Assembly: GCA_013415865.1 (NCBI GenBank)
Contig: CP058896.1
Span: 764,921 to 828,920, forward strand
Length of the DNA stretch: 64,000 nucleotides
Reading direction: 5' to 3'
Source of the DNA: Methanomassiliicoccales archaeon
GTDB lineage: Archaea > Thermoplasmatota > Thermoplasmata > Methanomassiliicoccales > UBA472
Positions 2,024-16,994 of this stretch are shown here, one piece after another (position 1 is the first letter of the stretch; every line of letters starts with the position of its first letter). A program made the translations under genes and the position numbers. The notes beneath the pieces were generated by a model. That model was given only the letters and a program-made list of their open reading frames with translations, was not told the DNA's origin and searched no databases.

Positions 2024-3292
2024 TCAAAATTCATCAATCCGTTTGACCCTTGAGGATACCTTTGGGTCGTTTATAATCTCCATAAGTCGCTTCCCCATGA
2101 TCTCTACCAGACCCACGACCAAAGCATTGCCCATACAGAAATAGCGCCATCTTGTTGGCATCCCCAGCGTCCAATTGTCATCAAAACCATTCAATCTCTC
2201 ACACTCAACCGGCGTCAATATCCTGTAACGACCATTCGTTGGATCTAGGATTATATGGCTGACCCGATTCGGTCTCTTGTTACCATCGCTTGTCAGTAAT
2301 GTCCTCGAAGGCTCGTCCAATCTGTCAGGAAATGGTATAGCGCCTTCTGTGTAATGATACTCGTAGCCATTCTTATCCTTCCGATATTCAGCTTTTGCAC
2401 CTTTGCAGTACCTCCACGTTTTTTTATTTATTGTATCGGATCCCTCCTCACCTATGTCCCCTTCATTTACATAGAACTCATCATCAGCATCAGGCACAAG
2501 AACGTCTCTCAGGGTCATCTTCCTTCCGTTGAACTTTGGAATTACATTGCAGGTCTGTATCTTACCCCTTACCATGTATCCAGAATTTTCAAATTTGAAT
2601 TTGAAATTGTCAGAAATGGATTGTAGGTCCTCTTCAAGGATGGCGGATCTGCACTCCCCGTTCAATTTGACCTTGAAAGAAGGTGCGAAGAAACCCTGTG
2701 ATAATATCACCTTCTCGGCTGGTGTGCTTTCATAAAGCGCCTTTATGACGGACTTAGGTCTTGTTGCAAAGATAAAGGTCCTCCTCCGTTTTTGAGGGAA
2801 CCCATAATCTGCTGCATTGATGACCCTCCATTCTACCGCATAACCTAGCCTGTTCAGACATCCCAAGATCATTCCGAAATCTCTTCCACGCTGACCTGTG
2901 GGGGACTTCAGCAACCTATCGACGTTCTCAAGAAGGACATAAGGGATTGGTCTCCCAGCATGGACCTTCTCTTTTAAAATCCTATCAATGTCCCACCAAA
3001 GGACGCCCTTCTTTCCTGTGATGCCGTTTGCTTTTGTTGTTGCAACTGAATAATCTTGGCATGGAAAACCTCCGACAAGAAGGGTAGCATCTGGTATATT
3101 CCGAACTTCGACCTTTGAGATATCTAAGTTCAAACAGATGCCTGGATAGTGCCTATTATAGCATTCAAAGGCATGCTGGACCTTTTTCCCAGGCTCCCAT
3201 TGGTCGGCCCAAACCACCTTCCAACCACTCTTACTGAGACCGAGGTGAAAACCCCCCACGCCTGCAAAGAGCTCGATTACAGTTGGTTCCAT
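2024..3292 (-). CDS. DNA (cytosine-5) methyltransferase
   Basis: This is a type II C5-cytosine methyltransferase. Its motifs run in canonical order. Motif I is VIELFAGVGGFHLGL (SAM binding). Motif IV is GGFPCQDYSV, with the catalytic Cys in PCQ. Motif VI is LLENVDRLL, motif VIII is QKRRRTFIFATR, and a C-terminal motif X region (CMGNALVVGLV) follows. It is the last gene of a minus-strand cassette behind a Sau3AI/MutH-type endonuclease, so it should methylate the site that enzyme cuts; a GATC-type site is likely but inferred. I prefer ATG at 3292, just ahead of motif I. An upstream in-frame TTG at 3391 would add 33 residues and overlap the endonuclease gene. Base composition is clearly AT-richer than the neighbourhood, as expected for a transferred cassette. 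Confidence 0.92.
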   Translation of the reverse strand: MEPTVIELFAGVGGFHLGLSKSGWKVVWADQWEPGKKVQHAFECYNRHYPGICLNLDISKVEVRNIPDATLLVGGFPCQDYSVATTKANGITGKKGVLWWDIDRILKEKVHAGRPIPYVLLENVDRLLKSPTGQRGRDFGMILGCLNRLGYAVEWRVINAADYGFPQKRRRTFIFATRPKSVIKALYESTPAEKVILSQGFFAPSFKVKLNGECRSAILEEDLQSISDNFKFKFENSGYMVRGKIQTCNVIPKFNGRKMTLRDVLVPDADDEFYVNEGDIGEEGSDTINKKTWRYCKGAKAEYRKDKNGYEYHYTEGAIPFPDRLDEPSRTLLTSDGNKRPNRVSHIILDPTNGRYRILTPVECERLNGFDDNWTLGMPTRWRYFCMGNALVVGLVEIMGKRLMEIINDPKVSSRVKRIDEF

Positions 3293-3356
3293 CTGTTCAA
3301 GTTGAGGCCCTATCCTTATGAATAATTTTCTGATGGGGTCAGTGTAAGTGTGGGAA

Positions 3357-4736
3357 TCATCTATTATCCAATGTCCAGGGGACAGCGCCAATCTGTTTTT
3401 CTATATAGGAGCGGTTCAACCAAAATGACCTTTTTACCTGCTTGCTTCCATCAGGTGCGGTGATAGTGTCGCGGGCCGTTCTTGCATGTGGTCTCACATG
3501 GCTCACCTTGTTGTCCGTGCTTTTTGGAAGTTCTGGATACTTGCCATCTATGATGCATTTCTTTGTGTCACTCCAGACCTTTCTCACTTCTTCTAGGTCC
3601 TTTGGCGGTATTGACCAGAACATGACCTTTTTCAAATGTTTTATTCCTCTTTCGTCCTTCTGATATATAACAAAGAAAAATCTCTTTACGAACATCTCGC
3701 GGATTTGCGATGTATCCCAATCATCCTCTTTGACTATCTCGTCATATCTGAATGCGGGGAATGAGATATGCTCTTTGATTTTGCCATTCGCCTCCACTGT
3801 AATGCTTCTCAGCGTTATGTCCGCTTTTTCGAACTCTATAATCCGCTTTTTGACGCCTAAAATTCGACGTGTTAGAAGGTCGTTTATATTCTTTGCCCTA
3901 CTATTCACATCAAAATCAAATTTCTTACCAATCGCTACCACATCCCATCCAATATACGGATTGAATCTTTCAATTACAATTTCTTCAAATGAGTCGTATC
4001 CCTTTGGTAGGCCTTGTTTCACGATGGAGTCCTGTTGCAATATATTCTCCTTTTTTTGTAAATATTGGATAATGGAGTTTACATAGCTCTGTTTGAATGA
4101 GAACGCCCTTTGCATCGCCTTTTTTTCCGAAAATGGCTGATCTCTCAATGAATTGGAGTCTTTACCTTTAGTGCATGCAGCAAGATACCTTGTCATGCCC
4201 TCATGAATTTCATGTGCCTTTCCTGCCATTACCATTTCTTTTATGTCTTCCCAATCCTTCTTGATGACAGGAAGATCCTCATTTGGTATACTCCAAAGGT
4301 CTGCCAGGACCACTTTCAGGTCCTTTACAGGCTTGTCTTTCTCATGCAAATAAAAAACAACCAATAATCTTGCATTCTTCTTGAGGAAAGAGGAATTTTC
4401 AAAGATTTCGTCCTTCAATGAATGGTAATTGATGATGCTCAGGACCATTCTTTCTTTTGCTTTTATCCCTTTTGCTGTTTTTATGACCGGGCTTGATTTG
4501 AGTTCTATGCCTGCTTCACGAAAATCAGGAACGCTCTCATTGAAGTTCTCCTGAATCCCAAAATATTCTCGCTCCAAGATTGTGCCAAACCCTCCCTTTG
4601 ATGTTCTAGTAGTGTGTTCGTCAGAACCTCCATCCACGGATGTGGGAAGAACGGACCTTAGGGTTTTATTTACTATTCTTTTGGCCATCGAAAGTATGAT
4701 GGACTGGTCCTTGATCGATTTAGAATCGTCATTCAT
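3357..4736 (-). CDS. Sau3AI/MutH-family type II restriction endonuclease
   Basis: A 459-residue protein with the signature of MutH/Sau3AI nucleases near residues 48-90: GFGTILEREYFGI, then PDFREAGIELKSSPV. This supplies the Glu, Asp and Glu-x-Lys residues of the catalytic site. Its length matches Sau3AI-type enzymes, which carry a catalytic N-terminal MutH-like domain and a C-terminal DNA-binding MutH-like domain. The C-terminal half here (around PYIGWDVVAIGKKF) fits the second domain. The family is known to cut GATC. Start ATG at 4736 overlaps the end of vsr by 8 nt, implying translational coupling. Confidence 0.85.
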   Translation of the reverse strand: MNDDSKSIKDQSIILSMAKRIVNKTLRSVLPTSVDGGSDEHTTRTSKGGFGTILEREYFGIQENFNESVPDFREAGIELKSSPVIKTAKGIKAKERMVLSIINYHSLKDEIFENSSFLKKNARLLVVFYLHEKDKPVKDLKVVLADLWSIPNEDLPVIKKDWEDIKEMVMAGKAHEIHEGMTRYLAACTKGKDSNSLRDQPFSEKKAMQRAFSFKQSYVNSIIQYLQKKENILQQDSIVKQGLPKGYDSFEEIVIERFNPYIGWDVVAIGKKFDFDVNSRAKNINDLLTRRILGVKKRIIEFEKADITLRSITVEANGKIKEHISFPAFRYDEIVKEDDWDTSQIREMFVKRFFFVIYQKDERGIKHLKKVMFWSIPPKDLEEVRKVWSDTKKCIIDGKYPELPKSTDNKVSHVRPHARTARDTITAPDGSKQVKRSFWLNRSYIEKQIGAVPWTLDNR

Positions 4737-5190
4737 TTTCCTTCACCAGATTGATGATCATATCAACGACCATTTGGATGTCCCTTTTAATTTGACACTC
4801 CCATATTACCAAGGGCGTCCATCCGATTGCCTCTAATTCCTTTTTCACCTCGGCATCCCTTTTGATGTTCTTTTCAAATTTATTTTGCCAGAAATCAGAA
4901 TGAGATTTCGGGACGGGCAAATTGCATAATGGACATCTATGCCAAAAACACCCATTCACAAATATGGCGACTTTCTTACGAACGAATGCAATATCAGGTC
5001 TTCCAGGGAGTTTTCCATAACTGACCCTATATCCATAAATTCCATTTTCTCTCAATTTCTTTCTCAGCTTTACTTCGGGACCGGTATCTTTTCCTTTATT
5101 AGATCTCATACAGACGGATGTGCTCTCGGAAACAGGGATAGGGCACCTTCCATCCCTAATAAATGACTTCGTCCTTCTCCTCTTCTTCAT
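4729..5190 (-). CDS. vsr: Very short patch repair endonuclease Vsr
   Basis: A 153-residue Vsr-type mismatch endonuclease. The N-terminal block MRSNKGKDTGPEVKLRKKL, the PDIAF segment with its catalytic Asp, and the zinc-site pattern VNGCFWHRCPLC match the family, as does the C-terminal LVIWECQIKRD. Vsr nicks beside T:G mismatches produced when 5-methylcytosine deaminates, and so limits the mutational cost of the methyltransferase encoded downstream. It is first in the cassette. ATG at 5190 is preceded by GGAG at a short spacing, and an AT-rich promoter-like element (minus strand GTTTTAATAAAG) lies at 5233-5244. Confidence 0.92.
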   Translation of the reverse strand: MKKRRRTKSFIRDGRCPIPVSESTSVCMRSNKGKDTGPEVKLRKKLRENGIYGYRVSYGKLPGRPDIAFVRKKVAIFVNGCFWHRCPLCNLPVPKSHSDFWQNKFEKNIKRDAEVKKELEAIGWTPLVIWECQIKRDIQMVVDMIINLVKENE

Positions 5191-5838
5191 ATTCTCCTAT
5201 GGAATTCAATTAAAATCCTTAATATTTGCCGCCTTTATTAAAACACCCCAATATGTTGGACTTATATTATCAATATTATTTGATGGACAAAATATAGGCG
5301 ATTTTATTTTGACAGTTGAAAAGAAATGCATTAAATCTGGAAGACATGGATGTCCAGTTATCAGAGTAGAACTTCAAGTTTGAAGGGCAGACCTGCCTTG
5401 ATGCGTAGTCCATCAAACATTCAGAAAACATGACCGCCTTCTGTACCCATTCCAATTCTCGGATGCATACGAAGTATCTGATTGTGTGGCGCATCCGCAT
5501 TCTTGCGAACATGTTCCCGTTCTCTACCCATGAAAAATAGGTCTGTCCTACCGCTAGTTCCTAAATGCAATCTTATCCTCTGCTACCTTGAATGGTAGAT
5601 ATCCATCGCCATTTGATACAGATACAATATCTTGACCACATTGACCAATTAGATATTTCTATGGGAATTATTACCAATGAATCCACACACCGAATGTAAT
5701 TGTAAAAAGATGTGTTAGAACGTTAAGGGGCGTTATAGAAAAAATGGTTTGATCCCTGTGACCATCTCCGTTAAATATGCCATCAGCCCCATAAATGATG
5801 AAAATAGGTCATTTCAACTAAAATGGTGACAATCAACT
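5191..5838. other. AT-rich intergenic region with possible RM promoter
   Basis: The left part holds the probable promoter of the restriction cassette (minus strand, TATA-like element at 5233-5244). A 78-codon minus-strand frame at 5276-5512 has no recognisable domain and no clear ribosome binding site, so I do not call it a gene. The region is AT-rich and may be the outer edge of the transferred segment. Confidence 0.4.
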
Positions 5839-6258
5839 ATGATAAGACATCTGAAAAAGTACATCTTGAGCTCATCCAGAGAGGATGACAGGTCTGCCAC
5901 GGTTAACATTTCAAAAGAAGATTGGCAGGATTATATAGCAATGGTCAAGGAAGGTGTGCCGCTCGATGTCTCACCTGAGACGCTCATATCGATCGGTTCA
6001 AAGGTCCTGTTAGACGAAACGAACTATGAAGGACAGTCCTTCCTCCGTTCTCCACACCAGGAATTGGAAAAGCTCCGAAGGGAATGCATGGTCCTTGATA
6101 AGATGATAGAGGACGAGGTGATGATTGGTGATGAGCAAGAAAGGTCCCTGAACGAATATCTGGAAGACTGTGCGACCCTACAGTATTATCTCGAGATGAT
6201 GGAGCTCTTCGTAGCGAGGATGAAGAAAATGAGCCGGAAGGAAGGTGCTGAGAGTTGA
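5839..6258 (+). CDS. Hypothetical protein with RHH-like N-terminus and helical tail
   Basis: A 139-residue protein of unknown function. Residues about 20-60 read as a short strand (ATVNIS) followed by two helices (KEDWQDYIAMVKEG, then SPETLISIGSKVLL). This arrangement resembles ribbon-helix-helix DNA-binding domains. Residues about 70-135 are rich in Glu, Lys and Leu and look like a long helix or coiled coil. The TGA stop overlaps the TTG that opens the next reading frame, so the two genes are probably cotranscribed and coupled. The RHH assignment is by secondary-structure pattern only. Confidence 0.6.
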   Translation: MIRHLKKYILSSSREDDRSATVNISKEDWQDYIAMVKEGVPLDVSPETLISIGSKVLLDETNYEGQSFLRSPHQELEKLRRECMVLDKMIEDEVMIGDEQERSLNEYLEDCATLQYYLEMMELFVARMKKMSRKEGAES

Positions 6259-6275
6259 GAGAAGGCCAAGTAAGC

Positions 6276-6728
6276 ATGTCGACGGTCGATGTCCTCCTGA
6301 AAGAGGATCTGGCCAAAAAGGTGAAGAAGGTCGCCCTCAAGAAACGTGTGAGCTTCAAGACCGCCTTGGACATGTGTTATTCCGTCGGGCTTGAGAGATC
6401 ATTGCGGTCGCGAGATGCCTGGAACGACCTGGCCAAAGAACAGGGCCTATATGATGAGATCGTCCGAGCAAGGGCGGAAAAGGATGAAAAATTAAGACGG
6501 GTCATGGACCATCGCTCCCGGAGCGTGTCTAAGAAATTCGATGGCTATGAAGGGTTCAACAACGTCACAACGATGCTCATATCATACCTGGGGAAGCGCG
6601 CAGAGGCGGTGCAGCTTAAATCGCAATTGGAAAAGAAAGGGATAAAGGTTGACATAAGCCCAGGTGAGGTCCCGAACCTGGATGTGCTGACCAGGAGATA
6701 TCTTTTCAAAGATAAAAAAAACGGATGA
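6276..6728 (+). CDS. Hypothetical protein with RHH-like N-terminus
   Basis: An approximately 150-residue protein. The first 40 residues (STVDVLLKEDLAKKVKKVAL, then a second helix SFKTALDMCYSVGL) have the strand-helix-helix pattern of a ribbon-helix-helix regulator. The remainder is charged and helical, with a terminal alpha/beta-like piece (KKGIKVDISPGEVPNLDVL). ATG at 6276 is preferred: it lies about 12 nt after AGAAGG. The frame also opens with TTG at 6255, overlapping the upstream stop. It pairs with the upstream gene and sits before a dynamin-like GTPase. No toxin or catalytic motif is seen. Confidence 0.6.
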   Translation: MSTVDVLLKEDLAKKVKKVALKKRVSFKTALDMCYSVGLERSLRSRDAWNDLAKEQGLYDEIVRARAEKDEKLRRVMDHRSRSVSKKFDGYEGFNNVTTMLISYLGKRAEAVQLKSQLEKKGIKVDISPGEVPNLDVLTRRYLFKDKKNG

Positions 6729-6749
6729 TGCCTGAGACCATATGCGGTC

Positions 6750-6777
6750 GGTATCAGATGCGTATCGAACTGATACC
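6750..6777. repeat. Perfect 8-bp inverted repeat GGTATCAG/CTGATACC
   Basis: Arms at 6750-6757 and 6770-6777 enclose a 12-nt loop, 22 nt downstream of the RHH-like gene. A possible TATA element (ATTATAATAC) follows near 6795-6805. It could be an intrinsic RNA hairpin ending the small operon, or an operator bound by the RHH-like proteins and placed ahead of the dynamin gene. Confidence 0.55.
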
Positions 6778-7045
6778 CTGTAAAAAATTCCTCAATTATA
6801 ATACCTCACGACTGCATAATTCTCATATACTGACCTCATGATGAAGAAAAGACTGGTGATGGGGCCCACCTTTAACCGCCTGGTGCGAGCTGATGGCTTC
6901 TATCTTTCAATCGCACCTATGATAAAAGGTAGGTCCCTATGACGACGAGATCTGTGAGAATGGAGCGATGGGCCCTCATTATAAAGACCGCCTTCATCCG
7001 CCTATCTGTCCTTAGATGGTCTGGAACACCTCTGGGGGCCTGACC

Positions 7046-8809
7046 ATGATATCGTCCACCGCTCTGAAGGAGTTCGAAGGTCGGAAACTTGCTATTTTGG
7101 ACGTGGCCGGAAGGCTCGAAGAGGCTGCAACGGTGTTGAGGGCAGATATCGCCAGGTCAAGGATCAAGGATATAAGGACCAAACTGCAGGATGAACGGTT
7201 CAACATCGCGGTGGTCGGCGGCTATAAAAGAGGAAAGTCGACCTTCGTCAATGCCCTTCTGGGCTCTGAGATACTTCCAACAGGTATCGTCCCGTTGACG
7301 AGCGTGATAACGAAGATCGTGAGCGGAGATAAGACCCAGGTGACCGTGGTCTTTCAAGATGGAAGGCAAGAGAAGATCGCGATCAGGGACCTAGGACAAT
7401 ATATCACAGAGAAAGGAAACCCTGGGAACAGGTTGAAGGTCAGTGAGGTGGAGGTCACCTTTGATACAGGCGATCTGAAGGAGGGTGTCACCATCGTAGA
7501 TACACCAGGCATCGGATCGACATTTATTGAGAACACCAAGGTCGCCCATGGGTTCATCGACCAAGTAGATGCTGCAGTGTTCGTGATAGGTGCCGACCCT
7601 CCGATAGGTGAGGCAGAGATGGAGTTCTTGAAGATGGTCGGCAGGTCGGTGGACAAGATCTTCTTCGTTCAGAACAAGATCGATGCGTTTTCAGATGGCG
7701 AGTGGATGGAATCATTGGATTTTTCCTCGACCATGATAAAGGATCACCTTGGACTAAAAGAGGTCAAGGTATATCCTCTCTCGTCCAAGTTGGCCTTGGA
7801 CGCCAAGAAGAGACAGGGTAGGGCACAATGGGAGGCCAGCCGTTTCGAGCAGTTCGAAAGGGATTTTGAGAGATTCTTGGTGAATGGAAAGGGAGATGTC
7901 GTGCTCCATAACGCCAGGTCACGATTGCTGCGGATAGCGTATGACCTGAAGGATGCTGTCACGTTGGAGATCGATGCTACGGAACATTCCATCGAAGAAT
8001 TGCAAAGAAGATTGGATTGGCTTGATCAACAGAACAATCATGCAGTTCTGAGAATGAAAGAGGCGGCGTATATCATAGATGGGATGGAGAAAGATGTGTC
8101 CAGCTCGGTCACTGCCGATATCGCGCCATTTATCGGATCGAATAAAGACCGAGCTGTAGATCTGCTTAAAAGGAGGCTCGATGGGATCAGCAACGACCTA
8201 AATAAGGAAGATCTCCTCAATATGGTGACAAGTGAGATGGCCATCACTATCGATGAGGTCCTGGAGCCTTTCGTGAAAGAGCAAAGCTCGAAAGTGACGG
8301 GGACCTTCGAGCTCGCCGCAATAAGATTTAAAAAAGAGGCGGATGAGATCATCAGGTCGGTCCGTCAGGAGGTGGCCGAGGCTTTCAACATCAGCCTGTG
8401 CAAAGATGTGAGGCTCCCTGACTTCAAACAAGAGACAAGGTCTTGGCTCGATATCAGACCTGTCATCTCATATGACCTGTTGTTCGTCGGTGAGGTCCAG
8501 AGCGCACTACCCCGGAAGTTGATGAGGCGTATCGTTGAAAAAAAGGCCTTGAAGATGATAGAGGAGGAGCTCGAGAAGAACGCGGGCAGATTCAGATATG
8601 ACCTCGTGAGCCGACTGTCTGAGAGCTGCCAAAGGCTGAAGGACGAATATCAGGGAAATCTGAACGAGGTCGTATCGACCATCGATAAAGCATTGAGGTC
8701 TGGTATCGAAGATAGGCAGCGGACAAAGGAAGATGCGATGAAACGCAAGGCGCTCTTGAGGTCAGAGCTGACAATCCTATGCGACATCGTAGATGAACTG
8801 GAAAGATAG
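7046..8809 (+). CDS. Dynamin-like GTPase
   Basis: A large GTPase of the bacterial/archaeal dynamin-like type. Counted from the upstream ATG at 7016, the G1 P-loop GGYKRGKST falls at about residues 68-76. A G2 Thr follows (LTSVITKI), then G3 DTPGIGS near 161 and G4 NKID near 220. The C-terminal two thirds is almost entirely helical and charged, fitting the stalk and neck of dynamins. No clear transmembrane helix is visible, so membrane contact would be peripheral. I prefer ATG at 7046, 7 nt after GGGGG; ATG at 7016 lacks such a site. Family members remodel membranes, and some act in stress or phage defence. The location beside a restriction cassette and two RHH-like genes is suggestive only. 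Confidence 0.8.
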   Translation: MISSTALKEFEGRKLAILDVAGRLEEAATVLRADIARSRIKDIRTKLQDERFNIAVVGGYKRGKSTFVNALLGSEILPTGIVPLTSVITKIVSGDKTQVTVVFQDGRQEKIAIRDLGQYITEKGNPGNRLKVSEVEVTFDTGDLKEGVTIVDTPGIGSTFIENTKVAHGFIDQVDAAVFVIGADPPIGEAEMEFLKMVGRSVDKIFFVQNKIDAFSDGEWMESLDFSSTMIKDHLGLKEVKVYPLSSKLALDAKKRQGRAQWEASRFEQFERDFERFLVNGKGDVVLHNARSRLLRIAYDLKDAVTLEIDATEHSIEELQRRLDWLDQQNNHAVLRMKEAAYIIDGMEKDVSSSVTADIAPFIGSNKDRAVDLLKRRLDGISNDLNKEDLLNMVTSEMAITIDEVLEPFVKEQSSKVTGTFELAAIRFKKEADEIIRSVRQEVAEAFNISLCKDVRLPDFKQETRSWLDIRPVISYDLLFVGEVQSALPRKLMRRIVEKKALKMIEEELEKNAGRFRYDLVSRLSESCQRLKDEYQGNLNEVVSTIDKALRSGIEDRQRTKEDAMKRKALLRSELTILCDIVDELER

Positions 8810-9452
8810 AAATGTCATGCTGGACCATCCTTTCTTTGGACGGATAGGTCTTGATGATAAAGTATTAGATAATGAACAAAAGAGAGGTCCTGATGTCGTC
8901 TCACACATAATTAAAAAAAAATAGACGCGTAGGAAGGTCAAACCACCATCGCCAATAAGCATAGGTGTGGGGTGTGATGAGGTCCCGGGGCATTATCATC
9001 AAGCGTTCTGAGATCTGCCTTCTGGATAATTCAGCTCCCGATCTTCTTGGAAATCGGACAGATGATGATCGGGCCAGGACAAAGGCCGTGTACCAGTTCC
9101 AAAGATAGACAGGGTCCAAGGTTCCTTTTAATATCATCGATCAGCAGATTTACCATGAACTTGGACCGTGATTGCCATCCTGCCACATTTTTTGCTGATC
9201 GAAGAGGGCAGAGGTTCTCTGGGGGTGCAACTATAAGGCTTGTCAAGGCCCATGACCTTCACCTGTCTGGAGGTCTTGACCTCAGCGCTTTTATCATAAT
9301 TATACTAGGGCCCGAAAATATAATTCTGACCAAATCAGAATTACAATCGAAAGAATTATTATATTGTGTCAATGTCCCCAGCCTGGTGATGAGGCTCACC
9401 ATCAACTGCCTACCAATGGCTGATAGCTTCTACCTCGTCCTTAGGTGAGCTG
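8810..9452. other. Intergenic region upstream of antiporter operon
   Basis: No recognisable gene. The several short frames on both strands show no domain or ribosome binding site. The right end looks regulatory: a 9-bp inverted repeat at 9321-9343 and a TATA-like AATTATTATATT at about 9354-9365, ahead of the antiporter start at 9453. Confidence 0.45.
9321..9343. promoter_or_regulatory. 9-bp inverted repeat, candidate operator
   Basis: TAATTCTGA (9321-9329), spacer CCAAA, TCAGAATTA (9335-9343): a perfect dyad. It lies about 10 nt upstream of a TATA-like element at 9354-9365 and 110 nt before the antiporter start. That placement suits a regulator site for the antiporter-UspA-MFS operon. Confidence 0.5.
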
Positions 9453-10580
9453 ATGATCGACTCCACCGCGTTGCTGGTCGTGCTGGTTACAGCGTTCATA
9501 GCTTCATTGATGTCCATCCGGTTGGGCATTTCGGTCGCTATCTTGGAGATCGTGCTTGGAATAGTGCTTGGTAATGTGCTGGGAATGGAGAGCGCCGACC
9601 ACGAATGGTTGGCGTTCTTGGCCGGCATCGGGAGCGTTGTGCTCACCTTCCTTGCGGGGGCAGAGATAGACCCAGATGCGATGAAGAAGGACCTGAAGGG
9701 CAGTCTGGTCATAGGCACCCTTTCGTTCTTGGCCCCTTTCCTTGGGGCCCTTGCATTCGCCTATTACGTATTAGGATGGGCGACGCAGGCCTCTCTGATA
9801 ACGGGGATAGCCCTCTCCACGACATCAGTGGCAGTTGTCTATATCGTACTGGTCGAGGCCGGTACCAGCAAGACGAGGACCGGCTCTCTTATATTGTCCG
9901 CATGCTTCGTCACTGACCTCGGGACCGCTTTGGCCTTGAGCCTGCTCTTTGTTCAGCCGAACTACAACATCATCTTCCTATTGATAGCGATCGTGATCGT
10001 AAGCGTCTATGGTCCGAAGGTTATCGACCGGGCGATAAGATGGATAAAGGGAAGGGGTGGGGAGGGCGAGGTCAAGCTGCTGTTGGTATTGATAATCGGA
10101 CTTGGGGCCTTGGCAGAGGTCGCAGGGGTCCATGCCGTCCTTCCAGCATACATCCTGGGCCTGGTCACGGCAAGGGTGATGGGGAACAACAAGACGGCCC
10201 TGCAGAAGCTCAGGACCGTGTGCTTGGCGATGTTGACTCCAATCTTCTTCATCAATGCTGGTATGAACGTGTCCGTCGCCGCGGTGGTCTCCGGCATCGG
10301 TCTCATAGCCGTGCTGTTCGGTGTCAAGGTCATAACAAAGTTCATAGGGGTCCTGCCCGCCACAAAATATTTTGTCGGCAGAGACAGTGTCTATATAACG
10401 TTGCTCATGAGCACTGGACTGACCTTTGGGACGATCTCTGCACAATATGGATTGAACAGCGGCATCATCGACGAGATGCAATTCTCGATACTGGTGATGG
10501 TCGTTGTCCTTACAGCGGTGATACCGACGGTATTCGCCCAAAAGATGTTCAGTCCAAAGTTCGAGGGGGGGAATAGGTGA
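9453..10580 (+). CDS. Cation:proton antiporter (CPA2-type)
   Basis: A 375-residue integral membrane protein with about 11-12 hydrophobic segments in the Na+/H+ exchanger fold. It lacks the C-terminal RCK/TrkA-N domain of KefB-like members, which matches its short length. Family features include the GTSAV-like ALSTTSVAVVY segment and polar/acidic membrane residues near SACFVTDLGTALAL, which resembles the conserved ND/TD motif of the ion site. It should exchange Na+ or K+ for H+ at the cytoplasmic membrane. AGGTGA precedes the ATG. The stop overlaps the start of the UspA gene, indicating one operon. Confidence 0.85.
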   Translation: MIDSTALLVVLVTAFIASLMSIRLGISVAILEIVLGIVLGNVLGMESADHEWLAFLAGIGSVVLTFLAGAEIDPDAMKKDLKGSLVIGTLSFLAPFLGALAFAYYVLGWATQASLITGIALSTTSVAVVYIVLVEAGTSKTRTGSLILSACFVTDLGTALALSLLFVQPNYNIIFLLIAIVIVSVYGPKVIDRAIRWIKGRGGEGEVKLLLVLIIGLGALAEVAGVHAVLPAYILGLVTARVMGNNKTALQKLRTVCLAMLTPIFFINAGMNVSVAAVVSGIGLIAVLFGVKVITKFIGVLPATKYFVGRDSVYITLLMSTGLTFGTISAQYGLNSGIIDEMQFSILVMVVVLTAVIPTVFAQKMFSPKFEGGNR

Positions 10581-11008
10581 TGGAGAGCGATAGGTTGATC
10601 AAACGACTGTTGGTCGCGGTGGACGGGTCTCAACAAAGTTATAAAGCGGTCCGTTATGCGTCCGAAATCGCGAAAAGCACTAACGCGGCGATGACGCTGT
10701 TGGCCGTCGTCGAAGTGATAGACGCTCCGGAATTGATGATGGCAGACCACATCAATGGTGAAAAGGCGGCAATGGATTCTGCGTTGGAGGAGGCTGCGGA
10801 GATGGCGATCTCTTACGGTGTTGAGGCCAAGACGGTCATCCGTCATGGCAATCCAGCCGATCAGATACTCAGATACGCAAAGGAGGAGGGGGTCGATATG
10901 ATAGTCACAGGCAGCAGGGGCCGGGGCGATGCCAAAGGTCTTATCATGGGGAGCGTGTCCAGGGCCGTCACTAAAAGGGCGGACATACCGGTCCTGATAG
11001 TCCGTTGA
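10580..11008 (+). CDS. Universal stress protein UspA family
   Basis: A single Usp domain of about 142 residues. It begins RLLVAVDGSQQSYKAVRYA and ends with the nucleotide-binding signature VTGSRGRGDAKGLIMGSVSR (G-2X-G-9X-G-S pattern), so it probably binds ATP. It overlaps the antiporter stop as TGATG. GTG at 10577 is an alternative start one codon upstream. A Usp subunit beside an antiporter is a common arrangement and may modulate transport in response to nucleotide state (inference). Confidence 0.9.
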   Translation: MESDRLIKRLLVAVDGSQQSYKAVRYASEIAKSTNAAMTLLAVVEVIDAPELMMADHINGEKAAMDSALEEAAEMAISYGVEAKTVIRHGNPADQILRYAKEEGVDMIVTGSRGRGDAKGLIMGSVSRAVTKRADIPVLIVR

Positions 11009-11028
11009 GCAATGGTGGTCTGAACTTA

Positions 11029-12201
11029 ATGGCGATCGGTCTTAACGCTCATCTCTCGAAGAGGACGGCCTTTTCCTTCATCATCGTGATGGGGATAGTA
11101 AGTCTGCTTGTCGATCTGGTGTATGAGGGTGCCAGGAGCATCACGGGCCCTTACCTGTCAATGCTTGGCGCCAGCGCGGCCGTGGTCGGTTTCGTCGCAG
11201 GGTTCGGGGAGCTGGCCGGCTACGGGCTGAGATATGTATCGGGGGTGCTCAGCGACCGGACCAAACAATACTGGCTGATAACTATCGCCGGTTATTCCAT
11301 GAGCGTTATCGCGGTCCCCTTACTCGCTTTGGCCGGGAGCTGGGAGCTGGCAGCCGTGCTCATAGTGACGGAAAGAGCAGGGAAGGCCATACGGACCCCC
11401 GCCAAGGACACCATGTTGTCCCATGCCACGTCCGTGGTCGGACATGGGCGGGGCTTCGGGATCCACGAGGCCATGGACCAGACAGGCGCTCTCATTGGTC
11501 CGATGATCATCGCCGTGGTCCTTTTCCTTGGTGGCAGCTACCAGGCAGGATTTGCCCTGATGGTCATCCCGGCCATTATGGCCCTGGTCGTTCTGCTCTA
11601 TGCCCGCCACTACTATCCGAACCCGAGAGGTTTCGAGGGGAGCAGAGAGATAAGGACGGAGGGCATCCCTAGGTCATTCTGGTTCTATCTGATGGCAGTG
11701 GCCCTGGTTGCCGCTGCCTTCGCTGACTTCGCATTGATGTCGTTCCATTTCGAGAAGACGGGCCTGGTGGACATGGTCTACATACCGATCTTCTACGCGG
11801 TGGCGATGGGTGTCGATGCCATCGCCGCCCTCGCCTTTGGGCGCTTGTATGACAAGATAGGTCTACCGGTGCTCGCCATGGTATCAATGATCTCGGCGTT
11901 CTTCGCTCCTTTGGTGTTCTTGGGCGATATCTACATGGCGCTGATAGGAACGGTGCTGTGGGGCGTGGGGATGGGGGCGCAGGAATCTGTGATGAGGGCG
12001 GCGGTGGCAGAACTGGTCCCGCCAGACAAGAGGAGCACTGGGTATGGTATATTCAATCTAGGATACGGCGTCTTCTGGTTCATCGGGAGCGCGATAATGG
12101 GCGTGCTCTATGATGTCTCCATCGTCGCGTTGGTGGCGTTCTCTTTCGCTTTGCAGGTGGCGTCGGTCCCGATATTCCTCAGACTGAAAAGGTCTAAATG
12201 A
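11029..12201 (+). CDS. Major facilitator superfamily transporter
   Basis: An approximately 390-residue MFS protein with about 12 hydrophobic segments. It carries a cytoplasmic motif between TM2 and TM3 (GVLSDRTKQYW), a charged TM4-5 segment RAGKAIRTPAKD, and a second-half loop with GRLYDKIGLP. The substrate cannot be read. ATG at 11029 is preferred (GGTGG upstream). The frame also opens at TTG 11005, overlapping the UspA stop, so it belongs to the same transcript. Confidence 0.82.
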   Translation: MAIGLNAHLSKRTAFSFIIVMGIVSLLVDLVYEGARSITGPYLSMLGASAAVVGFVAGFGELAGYGLRYVSGVLSDRTKQYWLITIAGYSMSVIAVPLLALAGSWELAAVLIVTERAGKAIRTPAKDTMLSHATSVVGHGRGFGIHEAMDQTGALIGPMIIAVVLFLGGSYQAGFALMVIPAIMALVVLLYARHYYPNPRGFEGSREIRTEGIPRSFWFYLMAVALVAAAFADFALMSFHFEKTGLVDMVYIPIFYAVAMGVDAIAALAFGRLYDKIGLPVLAMVSMISAFFAPLVFLGDIYMALIGTVLWGVGMGAQESVMRAAVAELVPPDKRSTGYGIFNLGYGVFWFIGSAIMGVLYDVSIVALVAFSFALQVASVPIFLRLKRSK

Positions 12202-12840
12202 GGTCTCAGAGAGCGTGATTAACGTTACATTTCGCATGTCAGAAGGTCATGTTATGATTGGTAGAAATGGGAGTGACCATCGACATTGAGATGCTATTGG
12301 TCAACGTCAATGAATATACCGGAGTTTGTTCAAGTTCTGATGTGTTTTATGGTAACGCTAGGATGGTTCCTAATTAATTTCTAGCAGATGGTCTTTGTAG
12401 ATTTTTTTCCCAATGAAAAGTGGATGGGTCAAGGAACGTGGTGTTCTTACCTCTCGATATCCATGAAAGGGTCTGATGCAGGAAAGATGTCAATGGTTTT
12501 CATTTTGTCATCCACCCGACACCGAATGAAAGGTAAGGACCTTGATGCGTCGTGATGCTTCTCGGATAATCATGGAGTCGGAAATTATATTCGGTTCCCC
12601 CAATCTCAACCGTATCAAACGCGTGTTTTACCATTGTTTGGACCAAGGACGATAATAGGACAATATCGGTTGAAGGGAGGGCGTGACCACAGCTGATATT
12701 CAATTTATCTTTCCTCATCATGTGTTACCAAGGAATGTCGACCTTGTCCAGTGGTGGTCCCCTTGGCGGCAGAACCTCAATAAGTTGCATCATATGATCA
12801 TCCAATAATAGAATTGAAAGATAGGTGGAGGGTGTGTTGA
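12202..12840. other. Intergenic, convergent gene ends
   Basis: No supported gene between the convergent MFS and UroD-family genes. A 73-codon minus-strand frame at 12500-12721 has no domain and no ribosome binding site. A T7 run at 12403-12409 may contribute to termination. No repeat or RNA fold was recognised. Confidence 0.4.
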
Positions 12841-13902
12841 TCAATAGTCCCACTTATGAGAGGAATAGGCTTTGCACGCGCGCATCATTGCGTCCACATG
12901 GGAAAGAGGCATACCTCGGTGCAGAGAGCAAGAGCACATGAAGATATATCCTCCCCCAGGAGAGCAGGCGTTAAGGTATTCTTTCGTTTCCCGCTCGATC
13001 TTCTCTTCCGGGCCCAAGAGCAGCGTTGTGAAGACGTTGAGGCCTCCCAATTCACACACCCTTCTCTGACATACCCTTTTTAGTAAAACCAGATCGTTCT
13101 CTTCCCCAAACTGGATCCCTTGCACACCTGTGTCAATACATTCGTCAACCAATGACAGATTCTCTTGGGAATGGAATATGCCATGCGGATGGAAGATGGT
13201 TGGCAAGCCCAACCCCATAGCCTTAGATCTAAGCTTCCGGACCCCCGGGAGGGAGTACTTTCTAAAGGCCTCTTGTCCGAAAATGGTGGGATTGTCGGTC
13301 GATGATGCTAAGAAGCAAGTCCCTGCTCCTCTTTTAGCAGCCTCCTCCAAGAAGGATATGGAGAGTTCGACCGATAGCCGTGTGACTTCACGGGCCATGG
13401 TCTCGTCCAGATAGATGTCCAGGGCGTATCTTTCCATACCTCGTAGCAGCGCAGCCTTGGTCATAGGACCCTCGATGTTGCACACCACCTCCGCCTCTTC
13501 GGACAGGGAACGTGAGACCAGCTCGTAAGATCGGAGAGCCCCCCGATATGGATCCTCGCTCATTGTCTTAGGCTCTATCATGTCCTGCCAATCGTCCGAT
13601 TCCAGTGGATGCCTGAGCACGGATGGGATCCCATAATCTGTGAACTTGATCTCCCCTCCCAATGCCAGGGCGTCGAATCCCACGTAATGTATGCATCCTA
13701 CGACGGCATCCTGCCTAAGACGTCGATGTAAGGAGAGGATGGAATGAGCCGATCTTTCAGGATCGTAGGGAGGGGCGCAAACTTCGGGTGTTGTATAGCC
13801 GGCCTCATCCATTCCGAGGGTCAGGTCTCGTAAAAAGACGGGGACCGTATCTGGGGTTCCCAGCTCCAAGGCCGTCTGGAACCTCTCTTTTCCATTCATC
13901 AC
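12841..13902 (-). CDS. UroD-family (MtaA/CmuA-like) methyltransferase-like protein
   Basis: A 353-residue member of the uroporphyrinogen decarboxylase superfamily. It lacks the N-terminal RPVW.MRQAGRY signature of true heme-pathway UroD, so decarboxylation of uroporphyrinogen is unlikely. The better match is the MtaA/MtbA/CmuA branch, which moves methyl groups between corrinoids and thiols through a zinc site. Candidate zinc ligands are His238 and His240 (FHPHG) and Cys323/Cys325 (FMCSCS). Classical MtaA has His-x-Cys plus a distal Cys, so the His-x-His is a deviation. It begins 3 nt after the stop of a substrate-binding protein, as last gene of an ABC importer operon, suggesting that it processes the imported compound (inference). 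Confidence 0.8.
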   Translation of the reverse strand: MMNGKERFQTALELGTPDTVPVFLRDLTLGMDEAGYTTPEVCAPPYDPERSAHSILSLHRRLRQDAVVGCIHYVGFDALALGGEIKFTDYGIPSVLRHPLESDDWQDMIEPKTMSEDPYRGALRSYELVSRSLSEEAEVVCNIEGPMTKAALLRGMERYALDIYLDETMAREVTRLSVELSISFLEEAAKRGAGTCFLASSTDNPTIFGQEAFRKYSLPGVRKLRSKAMGLGLPTIFHPHGIFHSQENLSLVDECIDTGVQGIQFGEENDLVLLKRVCQRRVCELGGLNVFTTLLLGPEEKIERETKEYLNACSPGGGYIFMCSCSLHRGMPLSHVDAMMRACKAYSSHKWDY

Positions 13903-13905
13903 TTT

Positions 13906-14904
13906 TCACTCCTCGACCCTCGCCACCATAATGACGTTTTCAATGGGTATGAAACCCTGCGCCATTCTGGCCTCGAAGTCAGGTATAGCCGAGATCTTAC
14001 CGCTCGAAAGGAGGAAGTTTGCGGTCTGATGAAGGCTGCCCAGGTCTGTTTGGTTGAACCCGATGCTAAAAAACTCGCTGTTCATGCACTTCTTCGTCTC
14101 TTCGAGGGTGAGGCCTATTTTCTGAGCGCAGATGGCCGCGCTCTCCTCGTAATTCTGGTTGATGAACGCCACTGCCTTTTGTAAGGCCCTGACCGCCGCC
14201 TTCACCGCCTCGCCCTTCTCTTGGATCGCCTTCTGTGATGCCATGAAGATCATAGGGAATGTATTGGATAGACCACTAGAATCGCCGATCTGATGGACCT
14301 TGTCCCCGCATAATTTTTCAACATTGGTCGGCCATGGTTCACTCCCGGCCATGGCATCGATCTGTTCGGTCTGCATAGCGGTCGGCATGTCCGAAGGGCT
14401 AATGGGGACCAAGGTCACTTTGGAAGCGTTGACCCCGTTAACGCTCATCCATTGCAGGAAAGAGCCGTGGGTGCTGGACCCCATCTGTATCCCGACCTTT
14501 TTTCCCTCGAGGTCCTTCGGCCCCAAGATGTAATCCTGGCCAATGTATCGGTGTATGCCCTCCCCTCCCGAGTAACGACAGATTATCCTCGCTCCTGGAT
14601 TTTTATCTAATAGCATTATCGCAGGTGCATCCCCCATAGCCCCCACCTCCGCCGCCCCGGTCATAATGGCCTCGGCTGACTGGATGCCCCCGGTGACAAC
14701 CATGGTGGTGATGTTCAAGTTCTCTTCCTCGAAGTATCCCTTCTCTACTGCAACGATAAACGGCTCATAGTTGATCTTGTTAGAATACGTGATCACAAGG
14801 TCCATTTTTTTGCTTGAGTCTTTCCACATGAGAAGAGCTGTCCCTACGGAACCGATGACAAGCAATGCTATAATCGCCATCCCGATCAAGTACGATTTCT
14901 TCAT
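13906..14904 (-). CDS. ABC transporter substrate-binding protein (SsuA/TauA/NitT type)
   Basis: A 332-residue protein with an N-terminal hydrophobic anchor (about residues 6-27). No lipobox Cys follows it, so it is probably tethered by an uncleaved helix. A type II periplasmic-binding fold of the NMT1/SsuA kind then follows: MDLVITYSNKINYEPF, GYFEEENLNITTMVVTGG, DLEGKKVGIQMGSS and IDAMAGSEPWP. The family binds sulfonates, taurine, nitrate, aromatic acids or thiamine precursors; the ligand here is not readable. It sits between the ATPase gene (16-nt gap) and the UroD-family gene (3-nt gap). Confidence 0.88.
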   Translation of the reverse strand: MKKSYLIGMAIIALLVIGSVGTALLMWKDSSKKMDLVITYSNKINYEPFIVAVEKGYFEEENLNITTMVVTGGIQSAEAIMTGAAEVGAMGDAPAIMLLDKNPGARIICRYSGGEGIHRYIGQDYILGPKDLEGKKVGIQMGSSTHGSFLQWMSVNGVNASKVTLVPISPSDMPTAMQTEQIDAMAGSEPWPTNVEKLCGDKVHQIGDSSGLSNTFPMIFMASQKAIQEKGEAVKAAVRALQKAVAFINQNYEESAAICAQKIGLTLEETKKCMNSEFFSIGFNQTDLGSLHQTANFLLSSGKISAIPDFEARMAQGFIPIENVIMVARVEE

Positions 14905-14920
14905 TCATATCCCCCCATCG

Positions 14921-15730
14921 TCACTTACCTTCTTTCATCTCGATAGAAATTATTTTTTGAGTATTGGAAGCAGGTTTATAGGCGCAGGAGCAGGTACCAA
15001 GATTGGCCGATATCTCTTTTTGAAGGGCCTTGAACTCCGGTGATGTCGGGTCTCTCGGCCATTTCATGCTTATCATCCACTCTTTTGCGATCCGACCTGG
15101 TGATGGGGACATCAATACGATCCTTGTGCCCAAAAAGATCGCCTCTTCGATGTTGTGGGTCACAAATAAGATGCTCTTAGCGCCCATCTGCCACAGGTGT
15201 CTGACCTCGTTGTCCAAATGTCTGCGGGTCTGTTCATCTAAGCTCCCAAAGGGCTCATCCATTAGCAACACCTGAGGGTCCATGGCCAAGGCTCTGGCGA
15301 TGGCCACGCGCTGCTTCATCCCCCCAGAAAGCTCATTTGGTCTTGAATCTGAAAAGGCGGACAGCCCTACCATCTCCAGGGCAGAAAGTGCCCTCTGCTC
15401 ACGACGATCATGGTCTTTCTCGACCCCCTTCAAAACAAAATCAATATTCTCTAGGACGCTCATCCATGGGTATAGACTGAACTCTTGGAACACCACGCTT
15501 CTATCTGGACCAGGGCCAACGATCCCCTCGCCCTTGAATAGCACATCTCCTTTGGTGGGCTTTTCAAAACCCGCGGCAATGTTAAGGAGCGTGGTCTTTC
15601 CGCATCCACTTGGACCTATCAAGCATACGAACTCGCCCTTTTCGATCTTGAGGTTGATGTGGCTAAGCACCACCAATCCCTTACCTCTCCGCTCATCGAG
15701 GAAGACCTTGCTAACGTCCTTTAGCTCCAA
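14921..15730 (-). CDS. ABC transporter ATPase (SsuB/TauB type)
   Basis: A 269-residue nucleotide-binding subunit. Walker A is GPSGCGKTT (about residues 39-47), the Q-loop is VVFQEFSLYPW, the signature is LSGGMKQR, Walker B is VLLMDEPFGSLDEQTR, and the switch His lies in FVTHNIEEA. This is the standard set for nitrate/sulfonate/taurine importers. The tail carries a Cys-x-Cys (GTCSCAY) not usual for the subunit. It starts 7 nt after the permease stop. Confidence 0.93.
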   Translation of the reverse strand: MELKDVSKVFLDERRGKGLVVLSHINLKIEKGEFVCLIGPSGCGKTTLLNIAAGFEKPTKGDVLFKGEGIVGPGPDRSVVFQEFSLYPWMSVLENIDFVLKGVEKDHDRREQRALSALEMVGLSAFSDSRPNELSGGMKQRVAIARALAMDPQVLLMDEPFGSLDEQTRRHLDNEVRHLWQMGAKSILFVTHNIEEAIFLGTRIVLMSPSPGRIAKEWMISMKWPRDPTSPEFKALQKEISANLGTCSCAYKPASNTQKIISIEMKEGK

Positions 15731-15737
15731 AATAATA

Positions 15738-16622
15738 TCAGCCCCTATCCAGGCCCAAACGGTCCATGATCTTGTCCTCCAGAACCGTGAAGAGCGTTTT
15801 TTCCACGATAAGCCCGATCAAGCAGATTACAAGTATTGAGACAAATGCCGATACATAGTCCAGGTCATATCGCGACTGAATGATAACATACCCCAGTCCC
15901 AGGGCTACGCCCACCACCATCTCGGCCGCTATAAGGACCCTCCATCCATTGGCCAGGCCGATTCGCAGTCCATTGATTATCGACAGGGAAGAAGCTGGAA
16001 GCAGAACGCGAACAAAGGTGCGAAATTGGCCTGCTCCCGACATCTGGGCAACCCTCTTATGAACCTGTGGGACCGCCCTTATTCCTCCAGACGTGTTGAT
16101 AACAATGGGAGGGAATGCGGTCATGAATATCATGAAAATGGTCGCTGTCTCACCAAGACCGAAAATGAGCATGGCCATTGGTACCCAAGCTAGTCCTGGT
16201 ACCATCTGCAAGATGTATATCGAAACGATCGATAGCTGATGTGCCCTCTGCGAAACCCCCAATAAACACCCTAGAGAAATACCGACGGCCACTGCCAAAA
16301 TGTAAGCTGTCCCCCATCTGTACAAACTGGCTACAGTATGGTCGGCGATGCTCTTACCTTGAATTGGGGTACCATTGATCGCCTCTGCGAACACTTGAAA
16401 GGTTTCCCAGGGACGAGGAAAGTACACTCCTTTTGTCGCAGCAACGATCTCAGCCACTACATACCAGATGATAATAATAATTGTCACGCCAGCTATGATC
16501 CCGATAACATTTCCTTTAAAACAATCGTACTTATTTTTATGAAATGTGAAGATGGATTCGCCTTCCTCAAGAGCCTGGAGCGCCCTATCTTCTGCCTTAA
16601 TAGAAGTCACAGCCCCACCCAT
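15738..16622 (-). CDS. ABC transporter permease (SsuC/TauC type)
   Basis: A 294-residue permease with a cytoplasmic N-terminal extension of about 40 residues and six or seven membrane helices. The BPD_transp_1 coupling region is present near QMSGAGQFRTFVRVLLPASS, resembling the EAA-loop pattern of this family, followed by GLRIGLANGWRVLIAAEMV. It is the promoter-proximal gene of the four-gene operon permease-ATPase-binding protein-UroD-like protein. The gene starts just downstream of a very AT-rich stretch (16,640-16,860) that must hold the promoter. Confidence 0.9.
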   Translation of the reverse strand: MGGAVTSIKAEDRALQALEEGESIFTFHKNKYDCFKGNVIGIIAGVTIIIIIWYVVAEIVAATKGVYFPRPWETFQVFAEAINGTPIQGKSIADHTVASLYRWGTAYILAVAVGISLGCLLGVSQRAHQLSIVSIYILQMVPGLAWVPMAMLIFGLGETATIFMIFMTAFPPIVINTSGGIRAVPQVHKRVAQMSGAGQFRTFVRVLLPASSLSIINGLRIGLANGWRVLIAAEMVVGVALGLGYVIIQSRYDLDYVSAFVSILVICLIGLIVEKTLFTVLEDKIMDRLGLDRG

Positions 16623-16894: not shown

Positions 16895-16994
16895 TGCTCC
16901 CGCCGGGATTTGAACCCGAGTCGTTGACTTACCTCCGCGGATAAGTCACCGCGCCGAAAGGCCAACATGATTGACCGGACTACACTACGGGAGC
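16895..16994 (-). tRNA. tRNA-Glu (anticodon TTC), intron-containing
   Basis: Read on the minus strand, the acceptor GCTCCCG pairs with CGGGAGC and discriminator A follows. The D-arm contains GTGTAGTCCGGTCAATC. The anticodon stem TTGGC pairs with GTCAA (one G-U). The T-arm is TCGGG TTCAAAT CCCGG. The anticodon loop CTTTCGA gives TTC (Glu) once a 25-nt intron is removed between positions 37 and 38. No CCA is encoded. Mature length would be 75 nt. Confidence 0.95.
16930..16954 (-). other. 25-nt archaeal tRNA intron at position 37/38
   Basis: The intron forms a canonical bulge-helix-bulge. An inner 5-bp helix CGCGG/CCGCG closes an 8-nt loop. A 4-bp central helix joins loop bases C32-U35 to GAGG of the intron (with G-U pairs). 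Each 3-nt bulge is cut after its second base. It would be removed by the tRNA splicing endonuclease. Confidence 0.88.

Follow-up and report, generated by a model that had tools for sequence, protein, structure and literature searches.

Among the methyl-reducing methanogens of guts and wetlands the Methanomassiliicoccales hold an important place, and the substrates open to them are mostly deduced from known genes of the Mta, Mtm, Mtb, Mtt and Mts types. The soluble coenzyme M (CoM) methyltransferases MtaA, MtbA and MtsA (PDB 4ay7, 4ay8), which are associated with methyl-dependent methanogenesis, are members of the uroporphyrinogen decarboxylase (UroD) superfamily. The same superfamily includes the OdmB, VdmB, MtoB, CdmB and CmuA demethylases and dehalogenases, which are substrate-specific first methyltransferases of corrinoid systems, and the UroD methyltransferases that anaerobes encode in one cluster with a corrinoid protein, namely those of the type 1 mlp clusters and of Methanococcus SdmABC (PMC10418091, PMC11097638). 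For transport, the closest systems are the sulfonate importers SsuABC and TauABC, of which SsuABC is reported to import CoM in methanogens (PMC10658910, PMC12068725). Here we analyse a window of 64,000 nt from contig CP058896.1, a single-contig genome of 1.82 Mb with mcrA, whose source is by inference a methyl-reducing methanogen of Methanomassiliicoccales. Four minus-strand genes at 12841-16622 join an importer of the SsuABC type with a UroD-superfamily protein of a clade, here called the HPH clade, for which we found no description in the literature. The clade with its fixed importer is best called a variant of the UroD-superfamily corrinoid-type methyltransferases, and the reading that we modestly favour is that the genes form a mobile, self-contained unit that takes up a small methylated anion and demethylates it in a corrinoid-dependent way.

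The enzyme and importer of the four-gene unit

The open reading frame calls bear out the layout given in the preliminary description of this DNA, four genes spaced by 3-16 nt: permease, ATPase, binding protein and UroD-superfamily protein follow each other with gaps of 7, 16 and 3 nt. The UroD-superfamily gene occupies 12841..13902 on the minus strand (Pfam URO-D, 2.6e-36), 3 nt behind the binding-protein gene, and starts with GTG at 13902 and an ATG immediately next at 13899; residues are counted here from the GTG. Its product does not match the hemE model TIGR01464, even at E 0.01, and lacks the RQAGR-type signature of heme UroD, FLRDLTLG standing at that place. Against TIGR01463, NF040654 and NF041608, the MtaA, MtbA and CmuA models, it reaches 108.2, 72.9 and 53.1 bits, all far under the respective cut-offs of 235.4, 400 and 600. 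The closest solved sequence is that of MtaA, the methylcobalamin:CoM methyltransferase (E 1.7e-31, about 22% identity). The AlphaFold model (pLDDT 94.1, pTM 0.92) has the UroD/MtaA barrel fold in Foldseek, where the first two ranks are the MtaA structures 4ay7 and 4ay8 with template-modelling (TM) scores of 0.83-0.88, followed by heme UroD folds.

The resemblance to MtaA extends to the metal site, with a change in its ligands. In a profile-profile alignment with MtaA-type proteins and in hmmsearch against PDB 4ay7, the HPHG motif falls on HICG, and the second cysteine of MCSCS falls on the cysteine of GCG. The predicted metal ligands are thus His238 and His240 of a His-Pro-His motif (13183..13191, minus strand; His-x-Cys in MtaA) and Cys325 of Cys323-Ser-Cys325 (12928..12936, minus strand), which aligns with the third zinc ligand of MtaA. 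Both histidines are invariant in our 39-sequence alignment (A2), and Cys325 is found in more than 90% of it. Most archaeal members have Cys323 as an extra residue, whose place is taken by Pro or Ala in the bacterial proteins and in part of the archaeal ones; a few archaea have Gly for Cys325 and keep Cys323. A further clade motif, RDLT, lies at the end of the first strand (Arg25-Asp26, 13825..13830, minus strand), where MtaA-type proteins have TQ-type residues. Taken together, FLRDLTLG, HPHG and (C/A/P)-S-(C/G)-S mark the HPH clade, whose members form one side of a single branch with support 100/99 in a 73-row maximum-likelihood tree, which includes paralogues from several genomes and leaves out reference heme UroD, CmuA and Mlp1-3 sequences.

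These results decide what the protein should not be called. Because it fails two defining tests of membership, the model cut-off and the His-x-Cys...Cys site, it should not bear the name MtaA, and model scores, metal site and tree position lead us to reject it as an orthologue of MtaA or MtbA; the genome has MtaA-type genes elsewhere. It differs from MtaA, MtbA and MtsA in the His-x-His for His-x-Cys, in the RDLT for TQ-type residues and in its separate, supported clade, although the fold (TM 0.85) and the register of the three ligand positions are shared. From OdmB, VdmB, MtoB, CdmB and CmuA it is set apart, without direct sequence comparison, by their different metal site or lack of one and by their partners, a corrinoid protein and an MtrH-like second methyltransferase. 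There is a negligible chance that we are dealing with a uroporphyrinogen decarboxylase of the heme or siroheme pathway beside a transporter by accident. Such an enzyme would agree with the Pfam URO-D membership and with the heme UroD folds as next structural matches, but not with the missing hemE match and signature, the separate clade with its MtaA-like ligand positions or the importer pairing conserved across domains; hemE scores, signature motif and tree lead us to reject it. The preliminary description had noted the lack of a true UroD signature and a deviant zinc site, which is real, with C323 as the extra residue; placement in heme UroD, which it took as refuting its idea, occurs neither in the model scores nor in the tree, and the structure modelling that it proposed gives MtaA as the closest fold.

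The importer genes, all on the minus strand, encode a permease of the SsuC/TauC/SaoP type, first in the unit (15738..16622; Pfam BPD_transp_1, 2.9e-21), an ATPase of the SaoA/NtrD/TauB/SsuB type with a TTG start 7 nt behind it (14921..15730; ABC_tran, 4.6e-34), and a membrane-anchored binding protein of the NMT1/SsuA family (13906..14904; NMT1, 1.2e-20). By Pfam the trio consists of SsuA, SsuC and SsuB family components in the same three-gene architecture as SsuABC and TauABC, the best PDB relatives of the binding protein being the sulfonate-binding SsuA and TauA; the NCBIfam TauC and SsuC models also match the permease. It differs from these importers in that the binding protein stays under the SsuA_fam cut-off (TIGR01728, 138.2 bits against 163.5), has a clade-invariant His118 and a near-invariant Arg119, and is accompanied by an enzyme encoded in the unit. 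The conserved His118 and Arg119 suggest that a single ligand class may be bound across archaea and bacteria.

Among the top-scoring equivalog models for the ATPase and permease are SaoA and SaoP of the Sec-assisted organometallic (SAO) transport system. The scores are well under the cut-offs, with 248.6 of 360 bits for SaoA, 127.3 of 295 for SaoP and 42.9 of 300 for the binding protein against SaoX, and no SaoL, SaoB, SaoC or SaoT gene was seen; membership in SAO or among selenoproteins is rejected, scores being under the cut-offs. The likeness raises the idea of a metalloid or organometal module, in which methylated arsenic, selenium or mercury species would be demethylated at the His-His-Cys site with the help of the extra Cys323. 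A CobW-type GTPase adjoins the HPH gene at no fewer than 10 loci of family f6 (gut lineages) and matches CobW_rel_Se with 52.6 bits against a cut-off of 180, a bacterial locus described below (L123) opens with a helix-turn-helix (HTH) plus thioredoxin regulator, and Methanomassiliicoccus luminyensis CZDD1 demethylates the dimethylated arsenic species DMAs(III) (PMC10579292). We nevertheless regard such a module as improbable: in the loci read we recognised no ars, mer or sel gene next to the unit, bacteria and several archaea lack Cys323, and SaoX reaches only 43 bits.

Occurrence of the unit in archaea and bacteria

A scan of genome contigs with the single protein gave no match, and an alignment-based scan gave 44 loci. 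Of 147 genomes in the order, 63 give a match at E<=1e-15, and some 40 of these hold clear members of the HPH clade. The order permease, ATPase, binding protein and UroD is complete, or truncated by nothing but the end of a contig, in about 20 genomes, which come from families f1, f2, f4, f5 and partly f6. The preliminary description had named absence of the operon pairing from all related genomes as refuting; the pairing recurs in these genomes and in bacteria as well. One f5 genus keeps the enzyme alone at five of its six loci, and in the other branch of f6, where the CobW-type GTPase is the neighbour at no fewer than ten loci, the importer is near only some HPH copies. In one f5 genus (L052, L053, L054, L058, L078) the HPH protein has about 90 additional residues, with a CPxC zinc-ribbon-like C-terminal tail in L053, and the genes behind it encode a small membrane protein, a large protein that is secreted or membrane-bound, and a radical-SAM (S-adenosylmethionine) protein.

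Within the present genome the unit may be a newcomer. Its four proteins are 68-76% identical to their counterparts in genus g6, compared with 57% for the RIO kinase and 45% for LipA, and the tree groups the HPH protein with g6 and not with its own genus, whose two other genomes are without the unit. Identity and tree placement therefore suggest a recent transfer; unequal rates of protein evolution or loss in particular lineages would be other explanations.

In several f1 and f2 genomes the unit is placed between methanogenesis marker 2 and the genes LipA-E1a-E1b-E2. This placement speaks for a different role, the support of lipoate or 2-oxoacid dehydrogenase, in which a cofactor precursor (a thiamine pyrimidine or a lipoate-like compound) would be imported or processed for the adjoining complex of the pyruvate dehydrogenase (PDH) type, the UroD fold doing other chemistry. 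In agreement with this, the unit adjoins E1-E2-E3-LipB/A in Desulfosarcina cetonica, pyrimidine-precursor binders belong to the NMT1/THI5 family, and LipA is enriched in genomes with the HPH clade (13 of 25 against 9 of 49 without, p 0.006, a comparison confounded by shared ancestry). However, the PDH locus of the present genome is intact and the unit lies away from it, sister genomes likewise have the PDH locus without the unit, LipA and E1-E2 are missing at two f1 loci where the unit is present, and LipA is missing from f6 genomes that have the HPH clade. Unit and PDH genes are separable in both directions, so that lipoate or PDH is rejected as a necessary partner, and we judge this role quite improbable. 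In the present genome the full cluster of LipA, PDH-type E1a, E1b and E2 and a lipoate ligase stands behind methanogenesis marker 2 (L166, G000:C1:60000-76000, at 5581-12659) and is widespread in f1; for pyruvate dehydrogenase plus lipoate in Methanomassiliicoccales no paper was found, though a pyruvate dehydrogenase complex comes up in one paper on a metagenome-assembled genome (MAG). Another genome (L102, G138, at 6332-7081) has a decayed copy of the unit between marker 2 and LipA, of which parts of the permease and of the C-terminal end of the UroD protein are left.

In bacteria the alignment scan finds the HPH clade in Desulfosarcina cetonica and one more deltaproteobacterial MAG, as well as in several MAGs under the labels Bacillota, Zipacnadia, Hebobacteria or Armatimonadota. 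It is rare there, with 2 of 389 genomes in the class of Desulfosarcina and 6 of 291 in the Armatimonadota phylum set. Six bacterial loci (L119, L121, L123, L124, L130 and L162) have the importer ahead of the enzyme, with a porin intervening in the Armatimonadota-type ones. The strongest functional clue comes from L121, L123 and L144, in which the HPH gene is next followed by a gene for a corrinoid protein with the DxHxxG motif (DIHTLG), at a spacing of about 40 nt where readable (L121, L123). Behind it L121 and L123 have a second UroD protein, whose canonical His-Cys-Cys site (HVCG...GC) is seen in L123; the L121 contig ends within this gene, and that of L144 within the corrinoid gene. The three loci look like three-component methyl-transfer systems with import. 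Farther downstream L123 has an MttB homologue. With its two UroD proteins, one of them His-Cys-Cys, and one corrinoid protein L123 may be likened to the type 1 mlp clusters, in which Mlp2 and Mlp3 go with a corrinoid protein and a Ram/RACE gene; no Ram/RACE gene was recognised in it or seen beside the other HPH loci, and the tree has no Mlp1-3 references. The mlp and SdmABC proteins differ in keeping His-Cys-Cys, in acting on methyl-selenium or methyl-sulfur, and in that an SsuABC-type importer is not their core partner.

Proposed pathway, corrinoid partners and ligand

Under the favoured reading of import followed by demethylation, the SsuA-like protein would capture the compound, and permease and ATPase would import it. 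The HPH-clade triosephosphate isomerase (TIM) barrel, with its putative His-His-Cys metal site, would then move the methyl group from the compound to the Co(I) of a corrinoid protein. Some bacteria encode this protein and a His-Cys-Cys second methyltransferase in succession behind the HPH gene; in the present methanogen one of the four corrinoid proteins of the genome and MtaA-type proteins would be supplied in trans, leading to methyl-CoM and methane. The idea of an importer coupled to demethylation was already put forward in the preliminary description, and stands in part, with independent support from the bacterial loci, where unit, corrinoid protein and second UroD follow each other as far as the contigs reach. 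The same description held that no corrinoid protein is encoded, which is true for the window and not for the genome, where four B12-binding_2 proteins are present; its conclusion of a missing methyl acceptor thus falls. Besides, MtaA-type proteins are encoded in the genome, away from the operon. The favoured reading draws further support from MtaA as the closest solved sequence and fold, from the conserved residues at all three MtaA ligand positions, from the recurrence of importer plus enzyme in archaea and bacteria, and from mcrA in the genome.

The CobW-type GTPase beside the HPH gene at the f6 loci also speaks for a corrinoid-linked setting, and two other arrangements support it. A second, unrelated UroD clade with HTHG...APSC, again His-x-His...Cys, adjoins its own corrinoid protein (L095, L100). 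At 1297 kb of the present genome (L087, G000:C1:1290000-1306000, at 7481-13755) a corrinoid protein, a UroD-family protein and a CobW-type GTPase with a GGCICC motif stand in a row; with a large ASKHA-like ATPase close by on the opposite strand, it is another uncharacterised corrinoid system of this organism.

Several observations weigh against the demethylation pathway. At none of the archaeal loci examined does a corrinoid protein stand beside the HPH gene, whose fixed partner in archaea is the importer, so that a partner in trans is assumed. The bacterial loci with a corrinoid protein are few and closely related, being three MAG contigs, two of which are labelled Bacillota though their genomes are in the Armatimonadota phylum set. 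Moreover, His-His-Cys is the site of no known characterised UroD methyltransferase, and the pathway leaves unexplained the lipoate and 2-oxoacid dehydrogenase genes beside the unit in f1, f2 and Desulfosarcina.

As for the ligand, a sulfonate or sulfate ester seems likeliest, because the closest relatives of the binding protein bind sulfonates. A thiol-type substrate, as the preliminary description had proposed, is not supported: since His-Cys-Cys is the site of S/Se-methyltransferases (PMC10418091), its change to His-His-Cys would, if it indicates anything, speak against a thiol. Extended to the whole organism, the proposal would be that methane is formed from an imported organosulfonate or a compound of the methyl-sulfate type, a substrate not known for methanogens, whose methyl group is fed into methane by a mobile four-gene unit of HPH enzyme and importer shared with bacteria; we offer this tentatively, as a possible but doubtful extension.

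The main rival reading is a role of the sulfonate-type importer in CoM supply, CoM being a thiol sulfonate. In that case the importer would take up CoM, and the HPH protein would act on it or on a derivative, for example as a second methyltransferase that methylates CoM. The SsuABC importer reported from methanogens agrees with this, as do SsuA and TauA as closest solved binding proteins and MtaA, whose substrate is CoM, as closest enzyme fold. In addition, the closed genome has no ComA match and no ComE at E<=1e-20, and may need external CoM; ComA is unmatched in all 147 genomes of the order, hence uninformative. Among the 74 high-quality genomes of the order, however, ComE is present in 6 of 25 with the HPH clade and 15 of 49 without it (Fisher p 0.60, a value that neither proves nor excludes sulfonate or CoM as ligand), and CoM auxotrophy as the driver is rejected on this lack of association. 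Sister genomes without ComE are also without the unit, sulfate reducers and Armatimonadota-type bacteria, groups not known for CoM use, have it, and the thiol-binding His-Cys-Cys site is replaced by His-His-Cys. All this makes a CoM role rather unlikely. With its new set of predicted metal ligands and its dedicated importer, the conserved HPH clade can be tested as a pointer to a methyl source not yet recognised, or to the way in which these auxotrophic methanogens acquire and handle CoM. The bacterial loci offer a ready three-component set of HPH enzyme, corrinoid protein and second methyltransferase, and the single binding protein gives entry to the substrate.

Surroundings of the operon in the window

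Upstream of the operon lies an AT-rich gap, behind which the 3' end of a tRNA gene with a probable intron faces the operon (16895..16994, minus strand; Rfam RF00005, 47.4 bits; missed by ARAGORN). Leftward from this tRNA gene there is no synteny with sister genomes, and the genes for eIF1A and RIO kinase on its right are syntenic. On the left of the operon, at 2024-5190 of the window, is a restriction-modification island with low G+C at third codon positions (GC3), which encodes a cytosine methyltransferase, a probable restriction protein and a Vsr-like endonuclease.

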